Shown: piece after piece, positions 38,468-62,743 of the stretch | Layout of the letters: every line of letters begins with the position of its first letter | How positions within the stretch are numbered: the stretch's first letter is position 1 | Virus record (IMG/VR): IMGVR_UViG_3300005529_000008 | Location: 1 to 64,000 of that record | Length of the DNA: 64,000 bases | Source: a virus | Strand: one strand, 5' to 3' | Made by a program: the position numbers and the translations under genes | The notes under the pieces: generated by a model | Told to the model about the DNA's origin: nothing | What the model saw: the letters and a program-made list of their open reading frames with translations, nothing else | Database searches by the model: none

Positions 38468-38483
38468 GATAAAATAGTGTTAG
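38468..38483 (+). promoter_or_regulatory. late promoter motif
   Basis: GA-TAAAATA-GTGT-TAG, 24 bases before the gene at 38507. No TTGACA at -35. Confidence 0.65.
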
Positions 38484-38506
38484 GCCACGCTTCGCGCCGT
38501 TTTATA

Positions 38507-39037
38507 ATGCCCGGTACTGCTCTTATCGAAACACTTAAAAATGTCGTCTATGCGACGGATTGCGAGCATCCCGACCGTTCGCACTATGCGAACGGTAAGT
38601 GCCGCCCATGTTATCGTGCCGGTCGGAAAGCGGAGCAGCTTGCGAAGGAATTGGAGCGCACAAAGTCGGGCGAGGCTAGCGAAGAGAAAGCTGCCGCGAA
38701 ATTGAAATTAACTTGGGACCAAGATCCCGAGTTGAAGGAGAAGTTTGGGCGGATAATGTGGGGATGGTTGGAAGGCGCGGAGGTTGAGGAGATTTGGGTA
38801 GAGAAGGATGGGGAGAGAAGGCGGGATTTTCAGACCGAGGCGCGGCTGGCTGAGATTAACCAGCGTAAGGCCGATAAAGCTGCCACGGTACTCGCGAAAG
38901 GCTATGTGACGGAGAAGGTCGAGGAGGTCAAACCCCAGCCTCTCCCGATTGGGGCGAGTGTGGATATGAGCGGGTGGGGGTTGGTTGGCGGGGAGGAAAA
39001 TTTTAACGAGGACGGTGACGGTGATGACGAAGAATAG
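38507..39037 (+). CDS. hypothetical protein with small Cys motif
   Basis: A 176-residue protein from ATG 38507, 24 bases after a late motif. DCEHPDRSHYANGKCRPCYR near the start looks like a zinc site; the rest is charged and helical, and the end acidic. Possibly a small terminase-type or packaging protein because of position before TerL and the DNA-binding-like start, but no terminase motif was seen. Confidence 0.6.
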   Translation: MPGTALIETLKNVVYATDCEHPDRSHYANGKCRPCYRAGRKAEQLAKELERTKSGEASEEKAAAKLKLTWDQDPELKEKFGRIMWGWLEGAEVEEIWVEKDGERRRDFQTEARLAEINQRKADKAATVLAKGYVTEKVEEVKPQPLPIGASVDMSGWGLVGGEENFNEDGDGDDEE

Positions 39038-39464
39038 TTTTAGGCCGCGAGGTGGTGGGGGTGCGCAGGGAACGTTGGGAGTTGGAGCGGGTGCGCCAAA
39101 GCCTCCCACGGGTGATGAAGGAGGGGGAAATATTTTGGGTGGGTTAGGAAGTGGTGGTGGGTTGACTTTACCCGGCCCGAATCTTATGGGGCTGCCGGCG
39201 TTGAGTGGTGGTGGCGGCGCAACTACCGCGTCTGGCATTATGCCTCCGTTACAAAAACCGCCCGAGGGTGCGCCGGGTGTGATGCCGCCGTTGGGTGCGC
39301 CGCCCGCGCCATCGTTAACTGGTGGTTCAGCGCAAGATCAAGTTAACGCGGCTTTTAACCCCCCGCAGTTCGATGTGAATCAGTCTGGTATACCTGGCTT
39401 ACAGGGTCTCGCGGGTGGTGGGGTGTTGAGGCAAAAAGGCGTGCCGCAGATTCCGTCGTTGTGA
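39024..39464 (+). CDS. Gly/Pro-rich disordered protein
   Basis: A 146-residue protein overlapping the previous stop; long Gly and Pro runs (MPPLQKPPEGAPGVMPPL) and no folded domain. Typical of internal or scaffold-like virion components. GAGG before ATG 39024. Confidence 0.6.
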   Translation: MTKNSFRPRGGGGAQGTLGVGAGAPKPPTGDEGGGNILGGLGSGGGLTLPGPNLMGLPALSGGGGATTASGIMPPLQKPPEGAPGVMPPLGAPPAPSLTGGSAQDQVNAAFNPPQFDVNQSGIPGLQGLAGGGVLRQKGVPQIPSL

Positions 39465-39498
39465 GTTTAGTGCGCCGTAAGACCTCCAACATCACTGC

Positions 39499-39514
39499 GA
39501 TAAAATAAAAGAGA
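39499..39514 (+). promoter_or_regulatory. late promoter motif (weaker 3' half)
   Basis: GA-TAAAATA-AAAG-AGA; the TAG part is not kept. 60 bases before the secreted fibre-like gene. Confidence 0.5.
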
Positions 39515-39573
39515 CGAAATACTTCACGCGGCGACGGTCGCAGGGTTTAATGCCCGAAAGGAATTCGAATTTC

Positions 39574-40827
39574 ATGAAAAATTTTCTCAGCAAGTTTCTC
39601 CTGATCGTTGCCGGGTTGTTCGGCGCGACAACGTTCGGTCATGCACAAGGTAGCTGTATATTCTTCCCACTCCCTGGCGAGTATCAGAACCAGCCTAATG
39701 CGACGAACGTGTATCGGGTGGCGAGCGGTATCAATGCTAGCGGCACACCCGTCACAACCACGCCTATCTCAACCGACTCCACGCTTGCGACGACCGTGAC
39801 ACAACCCGCGAACGTTCCTCAGTCCGGTTCCGCGTTGCAAATCTGCGCCCCAGCCGGCCCGTATACGATTCAGTTTAATACTTCGAACGTAGGTGGGGGA
39901 TTTTTTAACTATAACTTCATCATCCCCGCAGACGCGACGAAGACTGTGGCGAGCGTATTTAAGGTGGTGGATGGCACCGATAACACAAAAGTTATCGTAT
40001 TTCAAAGCTCTGGCGCCACGACCGCGACAACTCTCACCCTCGCGGATAGCTCCACTGTCAATCGCACGCTGACCTTCCCCGATGCGACCGACACGTTGGT
40101 AGGTAAGGCCACGACCGATACGTTGACGAATAAGACTCTGACTTCGCCCGTTATCGCGACGGGACTTACTGCGTCTGGCTCGGCTGCCAACGATTTTAGC
40201 GGCTCGACTGGCGCGTTTAAGCCTAGCACCGGCACCTTTACCTTCCAAGCTACTGCGGTGGCTGCGTCGGCTGGCGCGAATAACTTTGATCTTTCCGCTA
40301 GCTCGGGAACGTTTAAGACGACAACTGGCGTGGGTACGTTTGGTGGATCGTCTAACTCCTTCTCCGGAGCGGTGACAATTACTCCGACCGCCTCGTTGAC
40401 GTTAGGCACGGCTGGCTCAGCCGTGGGACAGGCAATTTTCAACAACGCCACCTCTGGCACTATTACCCTCGCCCCGCCCACCGGCGCGTTGGGCAGCGTG
40501 ACTGCGCAGCTCCCCGACACTACGGGTGGAATGCCGGTTGTGATTAACTGCGGTGCGGTGGCTGCGGCTGGTGCGTGTGCCAATACGAATACCAACGGCA
40601 CGGCGCATATTTTCTACGGGCTATTCACGTTGTCCGGTAACTCCTCGCTGGCAACCGGACTCTCCCCCGCCTTTACCTCTACCACCTCCTTCGCGTGTAA
40701 CGGAACTACATCCACCGGCACTGCCGCGACGATCAAAATCGCCAACACCTCCGCTTCTACGATCACCATCACTAATCCGGGTGGCGGTGCGACGGATACG
40801 GTGAGTGTTATCTGCATCGGGAATTAA
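39574..40827 (+). CDS. secreted tail-fibre-like repeat protein
   Basis: A 417-residue protein. The ATG at 39574 follows AAAGGA; an upstream in-frame ATG (39550) is possible. Residues 1-25 are a Sec signal peptide (MKNFLSKFLLIVAGLFGATT, cleavage after HAQ). The mature part is Thr/Ser/Ala/Gly-rich with the fibre motif FPDATDTLVGKATTDTLTNK then TLTSPVI, found in many phage tail fibres. A signal peptide on such a protein is odd: it would be exported before assembly, perhaps as a decoy or surface protein. Late motif upstream, terminator downstream. Confidence 0.7.
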   Translation: MKNFLSKFLLIVAGLFGATTFGHAQGSCIFFPLPGEYQNQPNATNVYRVASGINASGTPVTTTPISTDSTLATTVTQPANVPQSGSALQICAPAGPYTIQFNTSNVGGGFFNYNFIIPADATKTVASVFKVVDGTDNTKVIVFQSSGATTATTLTLADSSTVNRTLTFPDATDTLVGKATTDTLTNKTLTSPVIATGLTASGSAANDFSGSTGAFKPSTGTFTFQATAVAASAGANNFDLSASSGTFKTTTGVGTFGGSSNSFSGAVTITPTASLTLGTAGSAVGQAIFNNATSGTITLAPPTGALGSVTAQLPDTTGGMPVVINCGAVAAAGACANTNTNGTAHIFYGLFTLSGNSSLATGLSPAFTSTTSFACNGTTSTGTAATIKIANTSASTITITNPGGGATDTVSVICIGN

Positions 40828-40858
40828 GACACGCCACCCAAAAGAGTGTGTAGAAGAA

Positions 40859-40884
40859 GGGCCGTTTGAAACGCGGCCCTTTTT
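40859..40884 (+). terminator. Rho-independent terminator
   Basis: GGGCCG (40859-40864) and CGGCCC (40874-40879), 9-base loop, then TTTTT. Ends the transcript of the secreted fibre-like gene before TerL. Confidence 0.85.
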
Positions 40885-40905
40885 CATTTCCCCACACCAC
40901 CTCGC

Positions 40906-40921
40906 GATAAAATAGAGCTAG
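40906..40921 (+). promoter_or_regulatory. late promoter motif, leaderless terL
   Basis: GA-TAAAATA-GAGC-TAG, with the terL ATG starting at the very next base. No ribosome site is possible, so terL mRNA is predicted leaderless. Confidence 0.75.
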
Positions 40922-42499
40922 ATGCCCGCAACGTCTTCCAAATTAAAACTCACCGGCTCTCAAAGCGTCTTCCTCGACTTTCCTCGACCTGGCCAGTGCG
41001 ATAAGCAATATAACGTTTATCAGCAGATGGTGGTGGGAGGATGGGCGAGCGGTAAGTCTTGGTCGGGTATTCAGAAGATTCTCTACCTCTCCGCGCTATT
41101 CCCCGGCAACGAATGTATGATCTGCCGCTTGCACGGCGCGGATCTTGAGAAGACCGTGATACCGGAGTTTTTTAAGCAATGTCCTCCGGGGTGGGTGCGG
41201 AAGATTCGTAATCGCGATCGTTCAAATATGATCGTGCATTTCGTGAACGGCAGTATCTTATACTTCCAGCATATTCGAGACGCAGCACAGAAAGGCACTA
41301 AGACACGTATCACGGGACATAACTTGGGCGCGTTTCTTGTTGAGCAGGCGGAGGAAATATCCCGCGAAGAGTGGATGGCGCTTTGCGGTCGGTTGCGCAA
41401 TACACGGGCGAAGGTGCGGTTCGCGCTTGGCAATGCTAACCCTGCGGGGCGAGATTGGATTCAGCAGGATTTTTTCCCGAATTGGAAGGCGCTTGATCCC
41501 CGGCGCGGTGTGTATTTCCGCACGTATGTGAAGGGGAACCGAATCGGGATACACGTTGATTCCGAAGAAAATCGCGTTTCCAATGGCGGTTTCGTAGACG
41601 ATGCATTTTACGATAACGTAATCGCGAATTCCACGCAGGAATTTGTGGACCGTTATGTACATGCGAGCTTTGCCGATTTTACTGGGAAAGTTTATAAAGA
41701 ATTTTCTGAAACCTCGGTACATAATATTGAGCCTCTGCCGCGCATACCGGACGGGTGGGAGTGTATTGGCGGGATTGATGTGGGCGGGGCGTGCGCGTGG
41801 TCGGTGTTGAAGGTGTACGTTGATAATGCGAAGAATTTAATCGTGGCAGGGGAGTTTGATAAGGCAACGCCGCTCGTAACGGATGTGGCGATGTGGATTA
41901 AGGCGAATATGCCGTGGGACGATCCCCGGACGACGTTTATAATTGACCCGGAGAATAAAGTCGCAAGCGCCGATCTTGCTGAATTTGGAATCTATACGCG
42001 ACCGGCGTGGAAGGGCGTGATTACGAATATCCAGCGCGTTTCGGGGTATTTGCATTGTGTGAAAGGCCGGCGCGCGCCACAATGGTTACACGATTACGAT
42101 CCTGAACACGCGGCGAGGTGCGAGCGCGATGGCACGCCGCGTTTATTCGTGTATAGCGCCTGTACAACCTTCCGTAAAGAACACGACTCGGTGGTGTGGG
42201 ACGATAAGCGCGTTAATCAGATTAAGAAAACGAAGACGGAACGCTACGATTCGGTGGATTGTGCGCAGTATATCGTGGCCACCCGGCCCGAGGCAAGGGA
42301 GTTGGCCGCGACGGAAGACCCCCGTATTGTGGAGATGCGCAAGGTGTCACCCCTCGCAGCACGGGAAATGCTAGAGGAACAACGTCTTATCGCGCAAATT
42401 AAAGCGCGGCAGGAGGGGCGTGGCACGGCGGAGATGTTTTGCGATTTTGACGATGGTGGGGGCGCGAGACAGTACGCAGAGGTGCCGTATTATGATTAG
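40922..42499 (+). CDS. terL: terminase large subunit
   Basis: A 525-residue packaging motor. Walker A GGWASGKS (39-46), Walker B LGAFLVEQAEEI (135-146, with E-E), a coupling motif around FALGNANPAG (Asn), and the RNase H-like nuclease with CIGGIDVGGACAW near residue 280, FIIDPENK and the late acidic YDSVDCAQY. It powers DNA packaging and cuts concatemers. Start ATG directly follows a late promoter motif. No confident small subunit gene was found nearby. Confidence 0.92.
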   Translation: MPATSSKLKLTGSQSVFLDFPRPGQCDKQYNVYQQMVVGGWASGKSWSGIQKILYLSALFPGNECMICRLHGADLEKTVIPEFFKQCPPGWVRKIRNRDRSNMIVHFVNGSILYFQHIRDAAQKGTKTRITGHNLGAFLVEQAEEISREEWMALCGRLRNTRAKVRFALGNANPAGRDWIQQDFFPNWKALDPRRGVYFRTYVKGNRIGIHVDSEENRVSNGGFVDDAFYDNVIANSTQEFVDRYVHASFADFTGKVYKEFSETSVHNIEPLPRIPDGWECIGGIDVGGACAWSVLKVYVDNAKNLIVAGEFDKATPLVTDVAMWIKANMPWDDPRTTFIIDPENKVASADLAEFGIYTRPAWKGVITNIQRVSGYLHCVKGRRAPQWLHDYDPEHAARCERDGTPRLFVYSACTTFRKEHDSVVWDDKRVNQIKKTKTERYDSVDCAQYIVATRPEARELAATEDPRIVEMRKVSPLAAREMLEEQRLIAQIKARQEGRGTAEMFCDFDDGGGARQYAEVPYYD

Positions 42500-42513
42500 C
42501 GCGTTTTTACTGC

Positions 42514-42529
42514 GATAAAATATATCTAG
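42514..42529 (+). promoter_or_regulatory. late promoter motif
   Basis: GA-TAAAATA-TATC-TAG, 17 bases before the gene at 42546. Confidence 0.7.
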
Positions 42530-42545
42530 TAGCGAGTTTCGAATT

Positions 42546-42917
42546 ATGGCGAAAAAATCGGCAAAATTGGGTAAAAATCGCACCAAGCGGGGAAGACCAC
42601 GTAAAGAAGTGTTCTTACAGGTCTCCCAGCGCGAATACGACTCGTGGCTCGCGCAAATCGAGCACTGGCAGGGGATGTTTGAGCGTGAGCAGCGCCGTGC
42701 TGATGCGCTGGTGGATCAGGTTTTAGTGGAGGGTGGGCGTGCGCCGGTTTCACACGTTGAGAATCGTGCTGGTACGGTCGATATGCAAAAAGCGGCGCGG
42801 GAAATGTTCGAGCAGATGAACGTGGCGATGTCGGATGGGGATGGGAGTGATTTTATCGATGAGAACGATATGGTGCGGATTGCGCCGGATGCCGTAGCGG
42901 CCCTTGGGGGTAAGTGA
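42546..42917 (+). CDS. hypothetical protein before portal
   Basis: A 123-residue protein: very basic start (MAKKSAKLGKNRTKRGRPRK), then a helical region with EYDSWLAQIEHWQGMFEREQ. Basic tail plus coiled helix could bind DNA, such as an atypical small terminase or head-completion protein; not established. Stop overlaps the portal ATG. Confidence 0.6.
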   Translation: MAKKSAKLGKNRTKRGRPRKEVFLQVSQREYDSWLAQIEHWQGMFEREQRRADALVDQVLVEGGRAPVSHVENRAGTVDMQKAAREMFEQMNVAMSDGDGSDFIDENDMVRIAPDAVAALGGK

Positions 42918-45409
42918 TGGCGGATATGATGAGTGCGGCGCTTGGGGCGTTGAGCGGTGGAGTAGGCGGTGCGGATAGCGGCGTGCCGGGGATTTCTGGC
43001 AGCACGGTCAAACCTCCCGCACCCGACCCGTATGAACTTTCGAAGGACAATAAGAAAGCCGCGTCGGATTTAATTGACAAGTATTTGAAAGTCAACGCTG
43101 CGACTCGCACGTCTTTCGAGTGGGGGTGGTTTCGAAATTTATGTTTACTCGCGGGCGCGCACGATATTGTGAAGTTGCAGGGCCAGGTAAAAGTGCGCCC
43201 GATGCCCCGATATTACTCTCGCGTCTATACGAATAAAATCGCTGAGAAACACTCGCAACTTCTCTCCGCATTAATGACGGGCCGCGTACCGATCAAACAC
43301 TCCCCCGCGACCGATGATGATAAGGCGCGTGGCACGGCGGAGGTGGCGGAGCGCGTACGCGAGGTAATTTACGCCGAAGCAAAACTCGATTATAAGGAAA
43401 ATGAAGCGGGAAGTTGGTTCTGGGCCACGGGTAATGTATTTATGCACCCGTATTATTCGTATGATGAGCGGCATGGCACTACGGAAGTTCCAAAGTTAGA
43501 GTGTCCGACGTGTAAGGAGACGTTTAGCACAAGTGAAGTTGAAGAACCGGGTGTTGAGGATGAACAGGACGAGCAAGCCGCGTCTCCTCCCGCGCCAAAC
43601 TGCCCAACTTGTGCCGCGCAGGGCGTAGCCTCACCGCTCGGTCCGTCCGAAGAAGTAGATCTTCTTCCAATCGGCGCACTATGCGCGGATGTGCTTTCGC
43701 CGTTCGAAATACGTGGTGATTTGCGGATTCGTGACGTGCGAGATTGGAACTGGTTTATCCGTGTGAGACGGTACGATTTATCTTACGCACAGGAGACGCT
43801 GGGTTATAAGGGTGGCGAGGAGGATAATGTCGATACCGGTAACACGCTTTCGCAACACTACCTTGATGTGATTGCGGCGCTTAACGAGCAATTCAATCCG
43901 CAAGGAGGTTTTGGCGGGTTAGGAAGCACGAATCAGGGTTCGCAGAAAGTGCCGAAAGTTACCGCATATGAGCTTTATATGCTGCCGAACGCGCAGTTTC
44001 CGCAGGGACTTTGCGTGGTACGAATTGGCAAGGAAGCGTCGAACGTTACACAAATAGTGCCGTTAGATTCTGAATATGGCGCGGGTGTGAAGAAGGGTAA
44101 GAAATTTCTCCCGCTCGTGCATGGTCGCGCCGAGACATTATGCGGGCGGATGTGGGGGAAGACTCCGCTTGATGATGTGGTGCCGTTACAGTATTTTCGC
44201 AATCGTGTGGAACGTGCGCTTGATACTGAATATAAGCGGATGGTCAATTCACTGTGGATGAATCCCAAGGGATCGGGCGTTGATAACTTCACCGGCGAAG
44301 GCGGCCAAGTAATGACGTATAACCCGATGGTGTTGGGAGGTACGGCGGTTGCGAAGCCCGAGAGATTAGTGCCGCAACTTCAATATCTTCAGTATTACAT
44401 TGAGTTTCTAAAATATCTTGACGATCAGATTGAACGAGTATCACTCACATATTTTCTTGCTGGGGGCCAAGCGCCGGCTGGGGTAGACGCCGCTAGCGCG
44501 TTGAATTTACTCGATCAGCGTAGTAAGCGCGCACTCTCACCAGCTACCCGCGAATGGGCGAAGATGTGGTTGCAGCTTGATGAGATGATGTTGGAGCTGG
44601 CGAGAAAGCACTGGGGCGATCGTCGTATCAATGTAGCGACTGGTAAAAATACGGCGTGGGAAGTCCAGTCGTTTATGGCGTCCGATTTAGTGGGCGCAAT
44701 TACGATGGAGATTGATTATGAGGCGCTATTTCCCAAGTCTGAAGCCACCACGCACGCGATGATTACGCAACTCATTCAGGGCGGCGTTATTAATCCGCAA
44801 GACCCCGAACAGAAGTATGAAGTATTACGAGTGTTCGGATTCTTAAAAATGCAGGGCGATGTGAACGATCATACGAAGGTGGCGCAGCGCGAGAACGATG
44901 AGTATATGAAGTCGATTCAGACAGGCGCGCCTAAGTTACCCCAGATGATACCGATGGTTGATAATTCAATGATTCACATTAAGGAGCATATCAAGCTGGG
45001 CACAACACAGGAGTTTCGCGCGTTGCCGCCACAGCTACAACAGCCGATGTTGGAGCACATACAGGCGCATTTTGTGGAGGAGGGACAGAAGCGTGCGTTG
45101 TTGGCAGAGATGCAAGTCAACCCTGATGCGCCAGGAGCGACCGATATTACAGGAGCGGATGCACAGGCCGCGTTGGGTGGTGCGAGCCAGGTGATACAGG
45201 CGGCGCAGCAAGGTGGCGCAAGTGCGCAACAGTCTCCAAATGGGTCGGGGCGGGTGGGGAATCAAGTGGGGAGTCGGACGCCGAAGGGTACGACAGGAAA
45301 CGGGCCGAATCAAGCTGCGGCGACACAAGCGCGGCAGAAACAGGTTATGACACAGCCGATACCAGACCCAGCGCAAGAAGCCGCGAAGTCGATATTTGGG
45401 AGCGGGTAA
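42917..45409 (+). CDS. portal protein
   Basis: An 830-residue protein of the large podovirus portal type. Recognised features: PRYYSRVYTNKIAEKHSQLL near the start, the stem/wing stretch RVERALDTEYKRMVNSLWMN, GGTAVAKPERLVPQLQYLQY and AGVDAASALNLLDQRSKRAL, which precede the long C-terminal barrel and a disordered Gly/Gln end. An insert near residue 195 holds two C-x2-C knuckles (CPTCKETF and CPTCAAQG) separated by an acidic linker, unusual for a portal. It forms the dodecameric DNA channel at one capsid vertex. Confidence 0.85.
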   Translation: MADMMSAALGALSGGVGGADSGVPGISGSTVKPPAPDPYELSKDNKKAASDLIDKYLKVNAATRTSFEWGWFRNLCLLAGAHDIVKLQGQVKVRPMPRYYSRVYTNKIAEKHSQLLSALMTGRVPIKHSPATDDDKARGTAEVAERVREVIYAEAKLDYKENEAGSWFWATGNVFMHPYYSYDERHGTTEVPKLECPTCKETFSTSEVEEPGVEDEQDEQAASPPAPNCPTCAAQGVASPLGPSEEVDLLPIGALCADVLSPFEIRGDLRIRDVRDWNWFIRVRRYDLSYAQETLGYKGGEEDNVDTGNTLSQHYLDVIAALNEQFNPQGGFGGLGSTNQGSQKVPKVTAYELYMLPNAQFPQGLCVVRIGKEASNVTQIVPLDSEYGAGVKKGKKFLPLVHGRAETLCGRMWGKTPLDDVVPLQYFRNRVERALDTEYKRMVNSLWMNPKGSGVDNFTGEGGQVMTYNPMVLGGTAVAKPERLVPQLQYLQYYIEFLKYLDDQIERVSLTYFLAGGQAPAGVDAASALNLLDQRSKRALSPATREWAKMWLQLDEMMLELARKHWGDRRINVATGKNTAWEVQSFMASDLVGAITMEIDYEALFPKSEATTHAMITQLIQGGVINPQDPEQKYEVLRVFGFLKMQGDVNDHTKVAQRENDEYMKSIQTGAPKLPQMIPMVDNSMIHIKEHIKLGTTQEFRALPPQLQQPMLEHIQAHFVEEGQKRALLAEMQVNPDAPGATDITGADAQAALGGASQVIQAAQQGGASAQQSPNGSGRVGNQVGSRTPKGTTGNGPNQAAATQARQKQVMTQPIPDPAQEAAKSIFGSG

Positions 45410-45420
45410 AATAAATTTAG
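45405..45420 (+). promoter_or_regulatory. late promoter motif
   Basis: GG-TAAAATA-AATT-TAG, overlapping the portal stop, 11 bases before the next gene. Confidence 0.65.
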
Positions 45421-45431
45421 TGAGGTGAGTG

Positions 45432-45617
45432 GTGCCAGCGGTATCGGAAGCGCAAAGAAAACTGTTCGCAATTGCCGAACATGAGCCGGGGAAGTTGCAC
45501 AGTGAGAATAAAGGCTTAGCGAAGCTGGGGCATAAGACTCTGCACGATTTCGCTGCCACGCCTGAGAAAAATCTCCCCGAGCGCAAGAATATATTGTCGA
45601 AACTAGGAAGGAAATAA
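45432..45617 (+). CDS. DUF3008-like small protein
   Basis: A 61-residue protein from GTG 45432 with GAGG upstream: MPAVSEAQRKLFAIAEHEPG, then LHDFAATPEKNLPE, a small basic phage family (DUF3008-like). It ends LSKLGRK, shared with the next gene. Possibly head-internal. Confidence 0.7.
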   Translation: MPAVSEAQRKLFAIAEHEPGKLHSENKGLAKLGHKTLHDFAATPEKNLPERKNILSKLGRK

Positions 45618-45620
45618 CGG

Positions 45621-45869: not shown

Positions 45870-45878
45870 GGTACGACA

Positions 45879-46690: not shown

Positions 46691-46769
46691 GTTTCGTGTC
46701 GGGATGTTGGGCTTTATATCGTAGAAATTGGCCGTGATCTCCTGCAATTACGATGGTTGGTTTATTCAT
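46563..46769 (-). CDS. minus-strand small protein inserted in late region
   Basis: A 68-residue protein MNKPTIVIAGDHGQFLRYKA, followed by a helix-strand pattern like a small Rossmann-type fold. ATG 46769 lies 7 bases after a TAAAAT -10 box, with TTGACA 18 bases before that, so a leaderless mRNA is predicted; the -35 box is half of an operator palindrome. Looks like an independent insert. Confidence 0.65.
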   Translation of the reverse strand: MNKPTIVIAGDHGQFLRYKAQHPDTKLIEANRVEKLFGVEAREVVSIGTAAERRDYGEVYHVALSRVR

Positions 46770-46775: not shown

Positions 46776-46805
46776 ATTTTACCTCTCTTTTTCTTAATTT
46801 GTCAA
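46776..46805 (-). promoter_or_regulatory. sigma-70 type promoter, leaderless
   Basis: Minus strand TTGACA (46800-46805), 18-base spacer, TAAAAT (46776-46781). The -35 box is part of the palindrome at 46799. Confidence 0.65.
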
Positions 46806-46876: not shown

Positions 46877-46892
46877 GATACAATAAATACAG
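46877..46892 (+). promoter_or_regulatory. late promoter motif
   Basis: GA-TACAATA-AATA-CAG, 13 bases before the structural gene at 46905. Confidence 0.55.
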
Positions 46893-46904: not shown

Positions 46905-47336
46905 ATGGCGATTGTAATTCACGAACAGAATGAAAAGATGCTGCGGTTGACAGTGCCCGGTACGCAGGCTGTTGCGGATCACTTGGATGTGTGCGTGATA
47001 CCGTTCGACGGCGTTATTCGCGGGATTTTGGCGCGACTTGATACGGCAGGCACTACCGGCACTCAAACCACCGATATTCTGCTCAACGGCGTGAGTATAT
47101 TCTCCGGCGCGACCCTCGTGAATTTTGCCAGTACCTCTCGCGTGCCTACGTATGGCGCTCTGACAACCAACCCGCCCAAGGTGAAGAAGGGCGATACGGT
47201 TCGATTGAATACGACTGCGGTACATAGCGGTACGGCTGGAAAGTCCCTGGCGATCGATATCACGATCCGGCGCGGACGGGCATCGCAGGAGGGGACGGAT
47301 TTTGATAGCGTTTCAGCGCGGTCTGATGCGATTTAA
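46905..47336 (+). CDS. structural protein, decoration-like
   Basis: A 143-residue beta-rich protein without catalytic motifs (TVPGTQAVADHLDVCVIPFD, KVKKGDTVRLNTTAV). Size and place before scaffold and capsid suggest a head decoration or fibre-type component. GAGGGACGAG before the ATG. Confidence 0.6.
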   Translation: MAIVIHEQNEKMLRLTVPGTQAVADHLDVCVIPFDGVIRGILARLDTAGTTGTQTTDILLNGVSIFSGATLVNFASTSRVPTYGALTTNPPKVKKGDTVRLNTTAVHSGTAGKSLAIDITIRRGRASQEGTDFDSVSARSDAI

Positions 47337-47443: not shown

Positions 47444-47447
47444 AGAG

Positions 47448-49895: not shown

Positions 49896-49922
49896 GGGCA
49901 CTTAGAAATAAGTGCCCTTTTT
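49896..49922 (+). terminator. Rho-independent terminator after capsid gene
   Basis: GGGCACTTA (49896-49904), loop GAAA, TAAGTGCCC (49909-49917), then TTTTT. A 9-bp stem with a stable tetraloop. Confidence 0.9.
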
Positions 49923-49954: not shown

Positions 49955-49970
49955 GATAAAATACAACTAG
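49955..49970 (+). promoter_or_regulatory. late promoter motif
   Basis: GA-TAAAATA-CAAC-TAG, 59 bases before the gene at 50029, directly after the capsid terminator. Confidence 0.75.
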
Positions 49971-50028: not shown

Positions 50029-50535
50029 ATGGATGGAAAAATTGTCGCGTTGAGGCTTACCGATAATCCGAAGATTTTGGAAGTGTTGCGCGAGAGAGGC
50101 GCATTGAGGCCCGATCCCAATAATGAGGAGAAAGAGACTTACTGGGCCATGTTTAACGGGCGACCGTTCGGCTTCTGCGCCGGGAAAGTTATCAGTCTAC
50201 CGGAGAATGTGGCGACGTGTTTGCGCAATTTACAACCCCTTATGGGGGGCACGCCGACTAAGCGTAAGAATGCGTTGGGCGAAGATTACGTATATCGAAG
50301 CTCCTACGACGCCCAGTGGACGCCAGTATTGGACGTGGTGGAAAGCTGGGGCGTTGGTGACGAGGCTCCAAGCGTTAAGGCACTACGAAAGACCCAGTGC
50401 GGCGTGTGCGAGAAGTCATTCGCATCCGTACGAGAGCTGGCCGCGCATCTTAACGAACATATCGACGATGAGCAGGGTACGCCAGCCATCTCGAAATCCA
50501 ACGGTAAATCCCACCTTCTCGGAGCGCCAAAATAA
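50029..50535 (+). CDS. virion-region protein with C2H2 zinc finger
   Basis: A 168-residue protein. Near the C-terminus it has CGVCEKSFASVRELAAHLNE-H, a full C2H2 finger (C-x2-C-x12-H-x3-H). The rest is beta/alpha with VLRERGALRPDPN and MFNGRPFGF. C2H2 fingers are rare in phages; here it may serve capsid or DNA interaction. Stop overlaps the next start. Confidence 0.65.
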   Translation: MDGKIVALRLTDNPKILEVLRERGALRPDPNNEEKETYWAMFNGRPFGFCAGKVISLPENVATCLRNLQPLMGGTPTKRKNALGEDYVYRSSYDAQWTPVLDVVESWGVGDEAPSVKALRKTQCGVCEKSFASVRELAAHLNEHIDDEQGTPAISKSNGKSHLLGAPK

Positions 50536-52676: not shown

Positions 52677-52692
52677 AGTAAAATAAGTATAG
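52677..52692 (+). promoter_or_regulatory. late promoter motif
   Basis: AG-TAAAATA-AGTA-TAG, 9 bases before the ATG of the nozzle protein; near-leaderless. Confidence 0.6.
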
Positions 52693-52700: not shown

Positions 52701-54920
52701 ATGCCAAAAAAGCAAGCTAGCTCGAAAGAAACTTCCGGCACGTTTAACCTGTCCACGGCCTCTGAAAATACTTATGCCGGCCAAGACGCACAGGAAGCGG
52801 CTGGAGCGCGGCGTGTATTGTCGATGATCCCCAAAATCTCCGGCGAGATGGTGCGCGAGTTGGGACAGGCGAAGTATTTACCGACGCAGCTTCCCACGAA
52901 AATCGGCGCGTTGATGGATTATCCGTACAACGATTCTAACGGTGTGCGCCAGTCTGTGCGCTTCGCCGTCGCCACGTCCGATAATATCGTGTTTGCGTTA
53001 TATAAAGAAGTCGCCGGTGCGTGGGTTGTGCAGACCCTTCCGCTCAATAACGGGCTAACTTCGAATGCGCCATTTAACGACTTCCCCCAGTTCGTAGTAT
53101 TGAATAATCTTCTCCATATCACAGACGGCACCACGTCTTGGATCTACGACGGGCCGAACGCCCAGTTCGTAATTGAAGGCTTCATCATCCCGCCCGTCCC
53201 GCCGAATATTGAAAATACGGGATTTGCGGGCACGTTTAGTTGCTCGGTGGGACGTTTCTACTGGATCACCTACGCCGACCATACCGTGGGTCGCGTGCAT
53301 GAATCCAGCTCGTCGCCTATTTCCACTTCGCCTGTCAACTCCCAAGGCTCCACCGGCCCCGTGGCGAATAAGTCAATTCAAGTACAAGCGTGTCGCACGC
53401 TCGTTACCACCACGATAGGTCTCACCGCGATCACCACTGGCGCAGGCGGATTCTTCCCCCAATTCGTGGGGATGAATTTGTATATCGGCGCGGTAAATTA
53501 CGGTCGTATTGCCACATTTACCGATTCCGCACATATGATACTCGATACTCCCGCGCCTGCAAGTAACGCCGGGGTAAATTGCATCATCGCCCCGCCCCGC
53601 GCCACGCATATTCATTTCTACTGTTCTGAGACCGATGGATCGCGGTTGGGTAAGTTTCTCACCAGTATCTCGGTGCTTGATCCGAACGACTTTATAATGG
53701 ACCAGGTTCCGTTTATTACTGATCCCACGAGTACGATTTCAACAGTGGATCGCCCAATCCGCAACGACCCTCCTGCGCCCAGTAAAATCGCGGAAGTCCA
53801 TAAATATCGCATCTTCCGGCGTCGCGAGGCCAAGCCAAATTTCTTCCACTTTTCGGGAAACGAAGAAATCTCGGCGGGGAACGGGAACGGCAGTCCTCAA
53901 GAATCCTACCCTGGCGCGGCAGGCACGGTTACGATGTCCGATATCGTGGATGAACAATCTTACCCACAATCTGCCAATCGTCTTCGCGGCTTGAAATCCC
54001 ACGCCGACGCGCTATGGCTCGGCACGGAAAAAGGAATCGTGCCGTTATACGGTAATTCGATCGATGACTTCGGTCTAATGCAAGTCGTGACAATTACGGG
54101 CGGCGTAATATCGCGGTGGGGGATGGAGACGACGCCGCACGGGTTGACGATTTTCGGGTACGATCGTCTATTGAAGCTCTACCCGCCCATTTCACCAATT
54201 TACTCCATACTCCCCCAAGATCTCAATGTCACCGACCAACTTCTCGAAATTGGTCGCCCGATGCGCAAGAAATTTCTCACGATTAAGAATGTGGACCAGG
54301 ACAATGTGCGCACGCTTCATTACCAGTACAACGAACGCGACTGGTTGGTGGTGTGTTACCAAGACAATACCTCAACCTACCACACTTACATCTACGACTT
54401 TGCGATCAAAGGGTGGTTCGAGTCGCAGCGCGGTTTTGCGAGCGTGGCGGTTTTCGAACCGATAGCCGGTAATGTCATTCTTGTCGGGGGCGGCACAGAC
54501 GGCTTTGTGTACGTTATTGACGATCTCTCCGGCACATTCTCCAATGCGACTTGTCCCGCCGCGATATTTCGACCCGCGCTTATCAACTTCGGTCGCCCTG
54601 ATATTATGCACCAGCTTTATTCGTTGGAGTATGAGTTAACGAACGATGCTCTCTCAGCAGACGTAACGGTGAATTTCTACCTTGACCCGCAAGACGCCGA
54701 TAATCCTGGTGCACCGTTCGGCCCGTTGAATTTTGCGAAAGTCCCAAATAGTGCTGCGCGATATCGTGCGTACTTCGCCGCGACGGACGGCGTAGTGGGA
54801 ACATTGTGTAAGCGTGCGCTCATCGAATTTCAAATCGCATCTTCCACAAACACCGGGGGTTTCCGTGGTATTATGCTTAAAGCGTGGCCGGTGGATGCAG
54901 AAGTGAATCAGGCGGGTTAG
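52701..54920 (+). CDS. tail nozzle/stabilisation-type protein
   Basis: A 739-residue protein made of many beta repeats (WIYDGPNAQFVIEGFIIPP, ALWLGTEKGIVPLYG, GWFESQRGFASVAVFEPIAG, NVILVGGGTDGFVYVID). The beta-propeller-like WYV repeats and size match podovirus nozzle or packaged-DNA-stabilisation proteins (tail tubular B / gp10 type). It closes the portal channel and may bind tail spikes. No catalytic site seen. Confidence 0.65.
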   Translation: MPKKQASSKETSGTFNLSTASENTYAGQDAQEAAGARRVLSMIPKISGEMVRELGQAKYLPTQLPTKIGALMDYPYNDSNGVRQSVRFAVATSDNIVFALYKEVAGAWVVQTLPLNNGLTSNAPFNDFPQFVVLNNLLHITDGTTSWIYDGPNAQFVIEGFIIPPVPPNIENTGFAGTFSCSVGRFYWITYADHTVGRVHESSSSPISTSPVNSQGSTGPVANKSIQVQACRTLVTTTIGLTAITTGAGGFFPQFVGMNLYIGAVNYGRIATFTDSAHMILDTPAPASNAGVNCIIAPPRATHIHFYCSETDGSRLGKFLTSISVLDPNDFIMDQVPFITDPTSTISTVDRPIRNDPPAPSKIAEVHKYRIFRRREAKPNFFHFSGNEEISAGNGNGSPQESYPGAAGTVTMSDIVDEQSYPQSANRLRGLKSHADALWLGTEKGIVPLYGNSIDDFGLMQVVTITGGVISRWGMETTPHGLTIFGYDRLLKLYPPISPIYSILPQDLNVTDQLLEIGRPMRKKFLTIKNVDQDNVRTLHYQYNERDWLVVCYQDNTSTYHTYIYDFAIKGWFESQRGFASVAVFEPIAGNVILVGGGTDGFVYVIDDLSGTFSNATCPAAIFRPALINFGRPDIMHQLYSLEYELTNDALSADVTVNFYLDPQDADNPGAPFGPLNFAKVPNSAARYRAYFAATDGVVGTLCKRALIEFQIASSTNTGGFRGIMLKAWPVDAEVNQAG

Positions 54921-55434: not shown

Positions 55435-55458
55435 GCCTTGCACTCTACCACACTCTCC

Positions 55459-55474
55459 TATAAAATACAACTAG
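55459..55474 (+). promoter_or_regulatory. late promoter motif
   Basis: TA-TAAAATA-CAAC-TAG, 10 bases before the TTG start at 55485; its core and downstream half are identical to those of the motif at 49955. Confidence 0.75.
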
Positions 55475-55484
55475 GCGGTGAAAT

Positions 55485-56000
55485 TTGGCCCAACGCACAA
55501 TTCCCACGATCAGTACGATTCCTCAACTGGCACAGTGGCAAGCCGGCCTGCGCGCCAACATCATGCGCGTTCTGGCGCCACCCGTGCCCGCCAATTTATC
55601 TGTGACCTCAAAACAGGGTGGGAACTATGTCACATGGTCCACGGTAAAAGGCGCGGATGGGTTCGAGTTGGACGTGTCGGAAAACGGCGATATGTCCAAT
55701 GTGCTCTCAACAGTCGCGTTGCCGTCGTCGCAAAATACTGCATATTTCGACACCGTGCCAGTGCAAGGTGGTTCGACACCGAAGACCCGCTATTACCGGG
55801 TACGCGCGACGGCGGGTACTGTGCAAAATCCCCACAACGTTAAAGGCGTATCAAGTTCGGTAGTATCTTCCACCGCCATCGCACCGAACGACACCGTAAC
55901 CGCCTCCGTCACCACTACCGACAATTCGAATCGTGACAAGATAAATATCGGGGCTGGAGGAGGCGCGTATCGAGAGCCATCTTTTGTTGACTTACCATAG
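55485..56000 (+). CDS. fibronectin-type-III-like virion protein
   Basis: A 171-residue protein, TTG start. PPVPANLSVTSKQGGNYVTW, then KGADGFELDVSENGD and RYYRVRATAG, the strand pattern of an FnIII domain, common on phage tails for carbohydrate or cell binding. A short helical region precedes it; the end is Gly-rich. Confidence 0.7.
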   Translation: MAQRTIPTISTIPQLAQWQAGLRANIMRVLAPPVPANLSVTSKQGGNYVTWSTVKGADGFELDVSENGDMSNVLSTVALPSSQNTAYFDTVPVQGGSTPKTRYYRVRATAGTVQNPHNVKGVSSSVVSSTAIAPNDTVTASVTTTDNSNRDKINIGAGGGAYREPSFVDLP

Positions 56001-56021
56001 TTTTTACGATATACTGCACGT

Positions 56022-56552: not shown

Positions 56553-56757
56553 ATTGTTTCGGAACCCCGAGCCAATTTAACACTTTTCCAAACCAAGTCT
56601 GTTGCTTGCGAAAACACCACATCGGGCCGTTGATGAGTAAATCGTATCGCAAACCGCGTTGTTCTTTTTTGAGCGCCGTGACAAACGCACCTTTTTCTGG
56701 TACAAGATCCTCGGATGAAAAAGATATTCTACCGCGATAATTACGTATCGGAATCAT
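56485..56757 (-). CDS. minus-strand small basic protein
   Basis: A 90-residue protein MIPIRNYRGRISFSSEDLVP, Trp/Arg-rich towards the end. It overlaps the end of the GNAT-like gene by 68 bases. AGGAT lies near the start. Probably a real convergent insert; unknown role. Confidence 0.5.
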   Translation of the reverse strand: MIPIRNYRGRISFSSEDLVPEKGAFVTALKKEQRGLRYDLLINGPMWCFRKQQTWFGKVLNWLGVPKQFKRRWRYRLVPRQKPWKSWPSL

Positions 56758-56792
56758 CCCCGTATCCTACCATACCCACCCACCTCGCGTAA

Positions 56793-56808
56793 ACTATAAT
56801 AAACACAG
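56793..56808 (+). promoter_or_regulatory. late promoter motif
   Basis: AC-TATAATA-AACA-CAG, 13 bases before the internal protein gene; similar to the motif at 46877. Confidence 0.6.
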
Positions 56809-56820
56809 AGGACTTTTTCC

Positions 56821-57702
56821 ATGCCTGTGCCCCTGTACGCTCGTTCTGCCACCTACGATATCGAAACGGGGTGGTTGTTGGATATTGATGAAGTGCCGTG
56901 GGAGGGTGCATGGGAGTTGGAAAAAAAAGGAAGAGAAAGCGAACAGCGCGTAACCGACGCTTCCCTACAAAACGCCGCGAATGATGCGCAGCGGCAGGGT
57001 GAGCAATATGGCGCGGAGAAGGGTGATCTCGCGCAACTTGATACAATTGGCGCGAATGGGTTAGGATTGGGTGCGAGTGGATATCTCGCCAATCAATTAA
57101 ATTCTATCGGGCGATCTTATGGCAATGCGCGCCAGAATGCTGCGCGTATCAACGCCTCTCGCGGGTTAGGCTCAACCCCAGAAGGCGCGTTTCAATCCAG
57201 TTTAAACGGTGCGAACTTGGGACAAGCGGGGGCGGAAAACGAAGCGTATAACAACGCGCAAATGCTCACTCGCGACAATATGCTTCAGGCGCTTGGTGCC
57301 CGTGCCGGATTGCAAAACACATATAATCCAAACGGTGCTTTATCGGTCGGCGCACAATCCGCGTATGATCAAAATCACATGGGTAGTTTGCTTGGCGATA
57401 TTGGTGCGGGATTATCAAGTGCTGCTGGAATTGTCGGGAGCGGGTTTGGTCTTGCAAATCAGGTTAAAGGCGGCGTGTGCTGGATCGCAGAGGCACTGTG
57501 GGGCGTGGATGATTTACGCACTCATATTGTGCGCGGGTGGTTAAATTATTCGCGGTTCGCAAATACTGTGTTGGGTCGCGCAATCCTGGTGCTTTACCGC
57601 ACTTTCGGTCAACGCTTAGCAAAATGCCGCTGGGCGGTGTTGAAATTACGTCCGCTTTTTAACCTCGCGTTACGGCGCGCAACCACGGAGGCGTGGCAAT
57701 GA
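56821..57702 (+). CDS. internal virion protein with CWIA C-terminal domain
   Basis: A 293-residue protein. N-terminus has ETGWLLDIDEVPWEGAWE, like the capsid N-terminal block. The middle is Ala/Gly/Asn/Gln-rich. The C-terminal part CWIAEALWGVDDLRTHIVRG, then LNYSRFANTVLGRAILVLYR, matches a Cys-starting phage domain often found at the end of internal or ejection proteins. Likely ejected with DNA. Confidence 0.65.
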   Translation: MPVPLYARSATYDIETGWLLDIDEVPWEGAWELEKKGRESEQRVTDASLQNAANDAQRQGEQYGAEKGDLAQLDTIGANGLGLGASGYLANQLNSIGRSYGNARQNAARINASRGLGSTPEGAFQSSLNGANLGQAGAENEAYNNAQMLTRDNMLQALGARAGLQNTYNPNGALSVGAQSAYDQNHMGSLLGDIGAGLSSAAGIVGSGFGLANQVKGGVCWIAEALWGVDDLRTHIVRGWLNYSRFANTVLGRAILVLYRTFGQRLAKCRWAVLKLRPLFNLALRRATTEAWQ

Positions 57703-59531: not shown

Positions 59532-61718
59532 ATGGGACAGAACACACAGCAAATTAAAGGTCTACCAGCGGGCGCGACGGTAGAACCGGTTGGTTCGGCG
59601 GGTGGTAGTACGGGTACGCCACAAATCAGCGGCCTACCTCCCGGCGCGTCCGTGGAAGCTATCCCGCAACTCAATAACGCCGACAAGCCCCTTCGGATGT
59701 TCCGCTCCGATACGGGCGCGGAGCAAGATGTGCCACGCAATCAAGTGGGCGATTTTGCGAAACAGGGATGGCAGGCCGGGAGTGCGCCGCAGAAGTCGGG
59801 TGCGAGTGGTGAAGGCTTTGGAACGTCCTTCGCTCACGCAGCCGGTGTTCCGGCTTCGATAAGCGAAGTTACAGATTCGGTAAAAGATAAATCGGTGCCA
59901 CAACTTCTTGGCGGCGCACTTATGCGTTTCTCCCCCGCTGGAATGGCAGTGCGCGGATATCAGGCCATTTTTAACGCAGATAAAAAACTCGCGACGGGTC
60001 ATCCGTTAGAGGCGGTTGAAGCGACTCCGGGCGGCGGCGCGGTTAAGAAAACGGCAGAACAAGTTGGCGAGGGAAATTATTCTGGCGCAGCGGGAACTTT
60101 ACTCGGCACAGCCGCTCCGCTACTCGCTACGAAAGCTTTGGAACGCGCCGGTGTAGGCTCGGTTGATGAACAAGGAATTAAGATAAACGGAAAAGAGCCT
60201 GTAACGCGAGAAGCCGCGCGAGATAATTTAGTCAAAGCCGTCAACCCCGCCGCGTCCGATATGGGCACGATGAACGCGCATGGAGGCGGGACGGGGTTTA
60301 AAGGTAACTTGGACGCCACGCTCGATCACGTCGTGGATGCAGGACAGAAAGGCGGATTTGCAGATAAAGTTACCGGCGCAAAAACTCCCGGACAGGCTTT
60401 GGAAACCGCTGCAATGGCCCCGGAAGCCGCATATAAAAACCTCCCCTACTTCAAAGAGGTGATGGAACCGAACCTGGCGAAAACCGCCGACGTTACGTTC
60501 AATAACTATCGGGGCGGGAAGACGGGATATAATCAAGCAACCGTGGCGCAACTCAACGACCGGCTCACCGCGATCAATGCGGAGATGTACGGGAAGTATC
60601 AGCAAGGTGGTGCGGGTAGTGCGCGGGCCGATGCGGCGGTGAATGCCGAGCGCGTGCAATCCCTACAACAAGAAGCGGCGGGGATTCGTGATGCTCTTGA
60701 TAAGACCCTTGCGCGAGAGACGGGTGTGCCGATTGACCGTTTAAAAGGGATGCGCCAGCAGTACGGCCAGCTCAAAGATGTCGCGGACACGATGAAGCTG
60801 CGCGCAGCAGAATTACAACACGGCGAGAACGCGACGGCGAACAAGACGCTTTCCGAGCAAGTTCCTTCGCATCTTTCGGTGCCGGCAGTGTTGTTGAAAA
60901 CTGGCGCGAAAGTCGCGGACAAAGTGCGCGGCAACCCGGTCATCAACGGAATTCAAGATGCGTTTAAATATAAACCAACACCTCCCGCGCCGTTCAACGT
61001 AAATCCGCCCCTCGCACCCACTCCATACCAAGCGCCGAATAACTTGCCATTCGGTCGCCCCGGCACGCAGTCATCGCTACCGCCTGAGGTTTTACGCGTG
61101 TTACAACAGGCAGAGGAACAAAACGCGTCGCCTAAAACGATGACGGGTAAACCACTTACGGAACGCGCTCGGCGCGCCGCCAATGCTAATTTAGAAGCCG
61201 AGAGCCGCTTAAAGAACTCTTTGCCTACATCACCACCCAACGCGCCGCAGGTTGAGCCGCTGGCGCCCTCTGTAGCGGGTCCGCAGACCGGCACGTTGCC
61301 GTTGCCGAATAGGGGCGGTACTTTAAATCGGCCCCCGTTACAGCTACCCCCCGGCCCAACCGCGCCACCACAACTTCCCCAAAACGCCTCACCCATCGCG
61401 CTCCCGCCCAGCTCCGTCTCGCAGCTCATGCAGTATATTGAGAGCGGGAGCAAGCCAGTGCCGCGCAGTGAGTTGCCGATTACGACCACACCGTCGAAAC
61501 CGAACGTGGCACGCACTGCTCCACTCGCGCCAAAAAGTACCAGCGGCGCGGTTGAGTCCTCGAATCTACCTACCGTGCGCAATATGACCACCGAGGTGAA
61601 CGTAATCCACCCGGACGGCACGCCCGGTACGGTGCCCTCTGCGATGTTGCCGGAGTATTTGAGCAAAGGTTACAAGCTCGCCGCGCCGTTAGGTCGGGGC
61701 GCGTCGGGAGGGCAGTAA
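59532..61718 (+). CDS. internal virion protein candidate, large
   Basis: A 728-residue protein starting one base after the preceding stop. Early DVPRNQVGDFAKQGWQAG is a short repeated-type motif of ejection proteins; the centre is helical, and the last 250 residues are disordered Pro/Thr/Ser-rich. No transglycosylase motif was found. Probably ejected. Confidence 0.6.
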   Translation: MGQNTQQIKGLPAGATVEPVGSAGGSTGTPQISGLPPGASVEAIPQLNNADKPLRMFRSDTGAEQDVPRNQVGDFAKQGWQAGSAPQKSGASGEGFGTSFAHAAGVPASISEVTDSVKDKSVPQLLGGALMRFSPAGMAVRGYQAIFNADKKLATGHPLEAVEATPGGGAVKKTAEQVGEGNYSGAAGTLLGTAAPLLATKALERAGVGSVDEQGIKINGKEPVTREAARDNLVKAVNPAASDMGTMNAHGGGTGFKGNLDATLDHVVDAGQKGGFADKVTGAKTPGQALETAAMAPEAAYKNLPYFKEVMEPNLAKTADVTFNNYRGGKTGYNQATVAQLNDRLTAINAEMYGKYQQGGAGSARADAAVNAERVQSLQQEAAGIRDALDKTLARETGVPIDRLKGMRQQYGQLKDVADTMKLRAAELQHGENATANKTLSEQVPSHLSVPAVLLKTGAKVADKVRGNPVINGIQDAFKYKPTPPAPFNVNPPLAPTPYQAPNNLPFGRPGTQSSLPPEVLRVLQQAEEQNASPKTMTGKPLTERARRAANANLEAESRLKNSLPTSPPNAPQVEPLAPSVAGPQTGTLPLPNRGGTLNRPPLQLPPGPTAPPQLPQNASPIALPPSSVSQLMQYIESGSKPVPRSELPITTTPSKPNVARTAPLAPKSTSGAVESSNLPTVRNMTTEVNVIHPDGTPGTVPSAMLPEYLSKGYKLAAPLGRGASGGQ

Positions 61719-61719
61719 C

Positions 61720-62214
61720 GTGGCGGGGTATAAGGGAGATCCGCATTTCACACCGACTGGGCCGGTTAAGATGCCGTTTCAAGGCACCCATTTCTCCGAC
61801 CAACCAATATCGGGTGGAGTGTTGCGCGGTTCGATGCGCGGCGCGAGTGGTGCGGAAGAGTCGGCACGGCTTGATGTGCCACCCCAAGCTCCTGCGGGCG
61901 TACATGTGGTGCGCCAGGGACATCTCGCGCATCCGCATTTACGGTTACGGAAATATTCAAGCGGGGTATCGGGGAACAAAGCCATCGCGGATGTGGAAGG
62001 TGCGCAACACGAACTTTGGAACACTTCCGTGCAGCAAGGTCACGCTGCGGCGTTACAGAATGGGCTTGACCCTAAAACGGCGCAACTCTCCGCGCTCAAT
62101 GCCGGTGAGCATGGCATAAAAGCGGCGGGTTATGATGGGATGGAGTTCGGACGTTCGGCTCCCGGATCGGTACTGATGTTCGGAGATGTGGCGGTGGATA
62201 AATCGCATGTTTGA
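61720..62214 (+). CDS. hypothetical protein, ADP-ribosyltransferase-like pattern
   Basis: A 164-residue protein, GTG start one base after the previous stop. MPFQGTHFSDQPISGG and KAAGYDGMEFGRSAPGSV recall the opening and closing strands of ADP-ribosyltransferase-fold proteins packaged by phages, but the catalytic glutamate is not certain. Co-translated with ejection-type proteins. Confidence 0.5.
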   Translation: MAGYKGDPHFTPTGPVKMPFQGTHFSDQPISGGVLRGSMRGASGAEESARLDVPPQAPAGVHVVRQGHLAHPHLRLRKYSSGVSGNKAIADVEGAQHELWNTSVQQGHAAALQNGLDPKTAQLSALNAGEHGIKAAGYDGMEFGRSAPGSVLMFGDVAVDKSHV

Positions 62215-62726
62215 ATTTCTCTCCCCCAACTCTCCCAACCTTCCGTTTTCGTTCTAGCGAATATTTCCAATCGAGGCGTGGGCGATGCAATTTCAATCAA
62301 CTTACGCACGTCCTCCGGCTTTGCACTGTGCTTCCTTCTCGCCCAGGTTCCCCAGCTTCGCAACGAGTGAGATTGGAACGGCGCTTTTCCTCGCAAGCCG
62401 AACAGCAGAAATTCATGTGATACGCGCCAGTAATTTCCCATTCCGATATGCGGTTTGGTCCACACGAAGCAGGATTTGTACGTGAATCCCCACGCTGATA
62501 TCACTTCGAACGCGCGCGGGAGAAAGGCGTTGGTTGTCCACAGATGTAAATGCGCGTTGTCTTCGACCAGTGACGATACGGGCAACGACGCAATTTCCTC
62601 CACCGACATCGTTTCATAGTGATCGGTTGCCGCACCACGCGTCCCATTGTTCCCGTACTGCCACGGCGGGTCAGCATATATTGTGGCGAACTTGCGTCCT
62701 GCGATGAAAGTCAATAAATCGGACAT
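62130..62726 (-). CDS. MT-A70 family DNA adenine methyltransferase
   Basis: A 198-residue enzyme from ATG 62726. Motif FATIYADPPWQYGN (DPPW), then HLHLWTTNAFLPRAFEVISA, GFTYKSCFVWTKPHIGMGNYW, and SHEFLLFGLRG, in the family order. Modifies adenine in phage DNA. Its end overlaps the upstream gene by 85 bases; a late motif of the opposite strand adjoins its start. Confidence 0.88.
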   Translation of the reverse strand: MSDLLTFIAGRKFATIYADPPWQYGNNGTRGAATDHYETMSVEEIASLPVSSLVEDNAHLHLWTTNAFLPRAFEVISAWGFTYKSCFVWTKPHIGMGNYWRVSHEFLLFGLRGKAPFQSHSLRSWGTWARRKHSAKPEDVRKLIEIASPTPRLEIFARTKTEGWESWGREIQTCDLSTATSPNISTDPGAERPNSIPS

Positions 62727-62727
62727 T

Positions 62728-62743
62728 GATAAAATATAACTAG
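62728..62743 (+). promoter_or_regulatory. late promoter motif
   Basis: GA-TAAAATA-TAAC-TAG, 17 bases before the tail-spike gene. Confidence 0.75.

Follow-up and report, generated by a model that had tools for sequence, protein, structure and literature searches.

A predicted -10-only late promoter element and a phage ECF-type sigma factor as its probable reader in an uncultured phage

A short element recurs ahead of the virion genes of the phage recorded as IMGVR_UViG_3300005529_000008, which raises the questions of whether it is a promoter and, if so, which RNA polymerase holoenzyme reads it. The window analysed here, 64,000 nucleotides long, comprises bases 1-64,000 of a record of 65,738 bases. 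A direct terminal repeat of 90 bases (genome positions 1-90 and 65649-65738) makes the genome appear complete, the last ORF runs on across the genome join, and the record probably represents a complete genome that is circular or permuted. Leftward genes between 1.3 and 33 kb include those for a DNA polymerase, an exonuclease, a uracil-DNA-glycosylase-like protein and a sigma factor, and the genes for the large terminase, portal and major capsid proteins are among those running rightward from 38.4 kb on. The capsid protein is at most 32% identical to named records, and a search of bacterial genomes with the portal protein, for a host or a prophage, gave no match. In the protein encoded at 25103-25831 on the minus strand, the C-terminal half contains an extended series of alanine-rich repeats (ADAAAAAFAAADAAA).

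Alignment-based searches yielded as relatives the genomes G001, G008, G009, G010, G011 and G003 together with fragments. G001 (42.7 kb, partial) and G008 (68.3 kb, with a terminal repeat of 127 bases) have terminases that are 63 and 59% identical, respectively, to that of the window phage. G009, G010 and G011, with terminal repeats of 97, 123 and 127 bases, are complete and more distant (about 40% identical). Searches of viral contigs with the sigma, terminase or capsid sequence alone gave no close relatives; the alignments gave only G001 and G008 as such. A tree built from the terminase, portal and capsid proteins unites the window phage with G001 and G008 in one clade with a support of 1.0, in which G001 and G008 are sisters.

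The late element and its placement

An earlier note on this DNA had described the element as TAWAATA-N4-YAG at 11 places on the plus strand, and it is indeed present at all of them. The literal motif occurs nine times in the window, always on the plus strand between 38.4 and 62.8 kb and never on the other strand, with 0.24 occurrences expected from dinucleotide shuffles (largest shuffle 2). These matches cover 9 of the 11 listed places, and there is no further match on either strand. At one of the two non-literal places, listed as 39499, GAGA replaces YAG, as the earlier note had remarked; the other, listed as 46877, reads TACAATA, a deviation that it did not mention, so that TAHAATA is the better consensus. 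According to the same note, a motif just as frequent on the minus strand and within genes would speak against promoters; this was not seen: same-direction genes contain none of the sites, overlaps with gene ends excepted.

The whole-genome scan that had been proposed was carried out with a weight matrix built from the 11 sites and run over both strands of the 65,738-base record. Its top 12 positions are these sites and a twelfth at about 64577-64579 (GATAAAATAGACTTAGG), all on the plus strand; since the matrix was made from the 11 sites, their ranks are not independent and only the twelfth is out of sample. The weakest scores, 14.1 at 39499 and 13.9 at 56793, are barely above the 13.6 of the best background position. 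Blind expectation maximization (EM) upstream of 22 late genes led to GaTAAAATAaatCtAGg, with a log-likelihood of 96.8 versus 58-64 in shuffles. With the first T set at -12, the consensus reads G-14 A-13 T-12 A-11 A-10 A-9 A-8 T-7 A-6 N4 Y-1 A+1 G+2; G-14 is present in 9/12 sites of the window phage, T-15 in a minority, and T at -10 in one of the twelve. The sites, and a hairpin among them, are:

38470-38483, plus strand: predicted late promoter TAAAATA-GTGT-TAG; predicted +1 at 38482, ATG at 38507; orthologous sites in G001 and G008
39501-39514, plus strand: predicted late promoter TAAAATAAAAGAGA, without YAG; ATG at 39550; weak matrix score (14.1); orthologous sites in G001 and G008
40908-40921, plus strand: predicted late promoter TAAAATA-GAGC-TAG; adjoins the large terminase ATG at 40922, predicted leader 2 nt
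42516-42529, plus strand: predicted late promoter TAAAATA-TATC-TAG; ATG at 42546; seen by literal motif, matrix and orthologous-place comparison
45407-45420, plus strand: predicted late promoter TAAAATA-AATT-TAG; overlaps the end of the portal gene; literal motif and matrix
46879-46892, plus strand: predicted late promoter TACAATA-AATA-CAG; ATG at 46905; TACACTA at the orthologous place in both G001 and G008
49896-49917, plus strand: hairpin GGGCACTTAGAAATAAGTGCCC-TTTTTATTTG, terminator-like; downstream of the major capsid gene
49957-49970, plus strand: predicted late promoter TAAAATA-CAAC-TAG; follows the major capsid gene and the hairpin, ATG at 50029; orthologous-place comparison
52679-52692, plus strand: predicted late promoter TAAAATA-AGTA-TAG; ATG at 52701; literal motif and matrix
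55461-55474, plus strand: predicted late promoter TAAAATA-CAAC-TAG; start codon TTG at 55485; literal motif, matrix and orthologous-place comparison
56795-56808, plus strand: predicted late promoter TATAATA-AACA-CAG; ATG at 56821; weak matrix score (13.9), strong orthologous sites in G001 and G008
62730-62743, plus strand: predicted late promoter TAAAATA-TAAC-TAG; ATG at 62761 of a 600-aa protein; literal motif and matrix
Genome 64579-64592 (L001:4579-4592), beyond the window, plus strand: predicted late promoter TAAAATA-GACT-TAG; ATG at 64607; matrix

The elements stand on the coding strand ahead of genes for the terminase, the capsid region, the tail and probable holins. The predicted +1 (the A of YAG) is separated by 2-60 nt from the downstream start codon wherever this is clear; the distances are 2, 37, 18, 14, 60, 10, 12, 14, and 19 nt at nine sites, 25 nt before ATG 38507 and 16 nt before ATG 64607, which covers 11 of the 12 sites, the one at 45407 being left out for want of a clear start codon. 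For comparison, 7% of random late-region positions fall 2-60 nt ahead of a called start. The A of YAG is a good candidate for the transcription start site. The hairpin at 49896-49917 ends the capsid unit just ahead of the promoter at 49957, and the ORF starting at ATG 64607 codes for a 75-aa protein with a C-terminal hydrophobic stretch, which is probably a holin.

No -35 element was detected at these sites. At 33 sites from three phages the best match to TTGACA at a spacing of 15-19 averages 2.67 of six positions, versus 2.69 at random positions, and none of the 33 reaches at least 5/6. A flexibly spaced -35 was rejected as well, since de novo EM over positions -44 to -21, which sought an upstream element or a -35 of flexible spacing, did no better than shuffles. 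One lone TTGACA upstream of the 46877 site is 35 nt away from its -10 and out of register, and the description of the element as -10 only, with no TTGACA upstream, is borne out.

Two minus-strand genes lie against the late direction. An ORF of 68 aa at 46769, within the late cluster, has a strong sigma70-like promoter (TTGACA-18-TAAAAT at 46805) ahead of it. A DNA methyltransferase gene (62130-63023) opposes the late genes; its start is probably near 62729, and its sigma70-like promoter TTGACT-17-TATATT is arranged divergently to the adjacent late promoter at 62730.

Early regions present a different picture. We scanned those of the window phage and G008 for matches of at least 10/12 to TTGACA-N16-18-TATAAT and found 18 on the early strand versus 4 on the other (8/4 in the window phage, 10/0 in G008), several of them directly ahead of early genes, e.g., on the minus strand at 15535, 8163, and 5832. 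By consensus match only, the candidates in the window include:

5787-5832, minus strand: predicted early promoter of sigma70 type (TTGACA-18-TACAAT), ahead of the nuclease gene at 4690-5832
Starts at 33070, 29008, 16300, 15535 and 8163, minus strand: further predicted sigma70-type early promoters

These matches suggest that ordinary -35/-10 promoters are in use in the host and that the late promoters form a class of another kind.

Conservation in sister phages and the change at position -8

The relaxed pattern TANANTA-N4-YAG occurs 11 times on the late strand and twice on the other strand in the window phage, 9 and 0 times in G001, and 7 and 1 times in G008. The corresponding counts are 0/1 in G009, 0/3 in G010, 0/1 in G011 and 1/1 in G003, and the motif is not in excess in the relatives found by capsid homology (L002-L085, G002-G004, G009-G011). 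Comparison of the window phage with either sister at 8-9 orthologous places gives 77-81% identity over the ten defined positions, a core identity that is biased upward because some sister sites were located by inspecting the orthologous place, and 26-30% identity, at or near background, in the flanks (-52 to -17 and downstream). Taken together with the coding strand and the short predicted leaders before late genes, this conservation of the element and not of its flanks upholds the earlier reading as late promoters, which we regard as very probable. For the site at 52679 no clear counterpart was seen in G001 and G008.

T-12, A-11, A-9 and T-7 are the same in every orthologous pair, whereas -8 agrees at only 0-11%. 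When -8 is left free, it is A at 11/11 sites in the window phage; in G001 and G008, 13/16 sites have C there. These counts are unaffected by the way in which sister sites were located; Fisher's test gives p = 6e-6, which serves only as a guide since sites within one genome share history. The sister consensus is TAAACTA versus TAAAATA in the window phage. Blind EM in the sisters returned other weak patterns and not the late motif, so that their sites rest on pattern and orthology searches, and matrix refinement in G008 retained only three sites.

In all three phages a predicted promoter adjoins the start codon of the large terminase (window 40908-40924, G001 16141-16158, G008 8199-8215), with predicted leaders of 2 nt in the window phage (AG-ATG), 3 nt in G001, and 2 nt in G008. 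A similar near-leaderless layout is also observed at G001 13282, G008 5996, and G008 30580.

The sisters show some further features. G001 has four tRNA genes (Pro, Leu, Leu, Leu; L006:11722-12067) in the interval from the capsid gene to the late promoter that follows; a tRNA search found none in G008 and only a doubtful one, at 38070, in the window phage. The family A DNA polymerase of G008 (L133:566-3688, minus strand) scores above cut-off against TIGR01443, a profile for intein C-terminal splicing. That of the window phage (8160-11225, minus strand) contains GCLTGDHEILTPQGWKKI...VHVTGNS at a place comparable to the G008 intein, with no intein profile matched; both polymerases seem to carry an intein.

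Candidate readers of the element

A phage sigma factor in the window had been named as a natural reader, and such a gene is present between the polymerase and glycosylase genes:

11553-12191, minus strand: ECF-type sigma factor with regions 2 and 4, proposed reader; Sigma70_r2 (1.7e-10), Sigma70_r4_2 (7.2e-9), PHROG 1740 and TIGR02937

Its score for TIGR02937 (sigma70-ECF) is 60.6 bits, that of the G008 sigma is 60.5, and the curated cut-off is 42.9; the nearest structures by sequence are solved ECF sigmas, and its AlphaFold model is poor (mean pLDDT 53). The ECF sigma of G008 is encoded at the same place and has a region 4 match as well (1.3e-5). At only 26% identity to the window sigma, it may be a replacement and not a co-evolved orthologue. 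PHROG 1740 is matched by the window sigma (2.1e-15), the G008 sigma (2.1e-11), gp36 of phiEco32 (1.9e-45) and gp47 of Salmonella phage 7-11 (1.1e-38), the latter two being biochemically proven phage late sigmas (PMC8948821). Sigma and motif occur together in the window phage and the complete G008, and both are absent from the complete G009, G010, and G011, in which a sigma profile search found none; the G001 contig is without the region where the sigma would lie and was left out of this comparison. As the three carriers form one clade, the co-occurrence represents a single evolutionary event.

In a family survey of 75 ORFs this sigma is the sole initiation factor recognised among the matches listed. 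The conservation that extends to the presumed start, as in T7-type promoters, might point to a phage single-subunit RNA polymerase reading the element as a short promoter. This seems hardly conceivable, as no RNA polymerase family is among the matches listed for the 75 ORFs, and a T7-type enzyme was rejected on that ground; a search for PF00940 was also negative, a result that is weak on its own since the controls were silent too. Just as improbable, or nearly so, is an element of translation or RNA processing, or a site of replication or packaging, which might be suspected from sites standing just ahead of start codons: the distance to the start varies from 2 to 60 nt and does not fit a ribosome-binding feature, and the confinement to one strand and to the heads of late units, with conserved -12, -11, -7, and +1-like positions, fits promoter geometry. 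An alternative sigma of the host, e.g., of the flagellar type, has a -10 of GCCGATAA, resembling GCGATAAAATA, and GC-GATAA is indeed found at several sites in the window. However, an upstream partner element at fixed spacing is absent and the likeness disappears in the sisters (GAGTAAACTA, GCGTAAACTA), which makes such a reader very improbable.

If the host holoenzyme with its primary, sigma70-type factor read the elements, as promoters of the -10-only or extended -10 kind and perhaps with a phage activator, the phage sigma would be left to serve something else. The element resembles the sigma70 -10 hexamer, A-11 and T-7 are invariant, the geometry fits, a -35 is not needed in extended -10 promoters, and G-14, a feature of these, is common in the window phage. 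There is also precedent, in that the late genes of T5 and others use host sigma70 (PMC7472727). However, most sites are without TG at -15/-14, G-14 is much less conserved in the sisters, the T of the primary-sigma consensus at -10 is nearly absent (1/12), and the strong A-6 and Y-1 A+1 G+2 set the element apart. The predicted promoters of the early genes are of the -35/-10 kind, which indicates that a -35 is used by the host polymerase, and a conserved upstream activator site was not found by EM over -44 to -21. Each lineage is uniform at -8, and the base there changes as a block from one sister lineage to the other, to C for the most part in G001 and G008, whereas a primary sigma of the host would be expected to keep an almost constant specificity. 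On balance we consider host sigma70 an unlikely reader.

The phage ECF-type sigma is probably the reader, to judge from comparative sequence evidence: it is the only initiation factor recognised, it co-occurs with the motif, the -8 position changed as a block, and PHROG 1740 links it to proven late sigmas. Each element would then be the promoter of one late (virion, lysis) transcription unit, consisting of T-12 A-11 A-10 A-9 A-8 T-7 A-6, four free bases and an initiator Y-1 A+1 G+2 at whose A transcription would start. Host RNA polymerase core with the phage sigma (11553-12191) would recognise this element alone, without a -35. The sigma would be made from the leftward early cluster, and transcription would switch from the leftward early genes, served by host sigma at TTGACA/TATAAT-type promoters, to the rightward late genes. 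We assign this mechanism as a whole a probability of about 0.7.

Counting against the phage sigma is its region 4 without a visible -35. ECF sigmas that have region 4 normally use a -35, and the conserved -35 of ECF-type promoters was not found here. Either region 4 has another task (e.g., to hold the polymerase flap), or the elements are read by something other than the phage sigma, or the -35 is too weak to be detected with 12 sites.

Relation to known late systems and significance

The T4 late promoter is the 8-bp TATAAATA, which occurs at 0/12 sites. The likeness to T4 drawn in the earlier note holds for the principle of a -10-only late promoter read by host core polymerase with a phage-encoded recognition protein (PMC2988020), here proposed from the genome sequence, and does not extend to the sequence or the proteins. 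T4 gp55 is without region 4 and acts with gp33 and the sliding clamp gp45, whereas the window phage has an ECF sigma with regions 2 and 4; gp33 occupies the polymerase flap site without reading DNA (PMC2988020). Neither a gp33-like co-activator nor a gp45-like clamp is named among the families listed (best 25 of 29 in one survey), where small or divergent proteins could escape.

A closer precedent than T4 is gp36 of phiEco32 (Kuravirus), and the late system described here is a variant of the phiEco32 kind, not a T4 relative. Ahead of middle and late genes, the gp36 holoenzyme recognises just one element, tAATGTAtA, and transcription starts 6-8 bp downstream of it (PMC8948821); the position of YAG would fit such a start distance. 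In both phages a PHROG 1740 sigma is encoded in a leftward cluster, late genes run rightward from single-element promoters without a -35, and early genes have host sigma70 promoters (PMC8948821, PMC4281155), both promoter classes being predicted ones in the window phage. The differences are that TAAAATA or TAAACTA plus YAG takes the place of tAATGTAtA, that 12 predicted sites compare with six proven ones, and that pairwise similarity between the window sigma and gp36 is not detectable. Moreover, a region 4 profile was not found in gp36, and its missing region 4 is the authors' explanation for the missing -35 (PMC8948821), whereas the window sigma has region 4. In this it resembles gp47 of phage 7-11, a PHROG 1740 sigma with region 4 that was proven in vitro with E. 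coli core and whose late promoters lie at comparable genome positions; the gp47 holoenzyme, however, reads a bipartite GTAAtg-(16)-aCTA (PMC8948821), and no -35 was found here.

It is possible, although we put this forward tentatively and at slightly less than even odds, that an ECF sigma with intact region 4 directs late transcription from promoters made up of a -10 and an initiator, so that loss of region 4 would be unnecessary, that this sigma and its dozen promoters moved together at -8 between sister phages, and that some late messages, i.e., those of the large terminase in all three phages, start 2-3 nt before the start codon.

The analysis provides, from sequence alone, a testable late-gene switch for an uncultured phage group and would extend the scheme known from phiEco32 to phages with structural genes that have only distant relatives in database phages. 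The sister phages may represent a natural experiment on a joint change of specificity in a sigma factor and its whole set of promoters. Should the phage sigma turn out to read the elements, the connection drawn in the literature between the absence of region 4 and that of a -35 would not be general.
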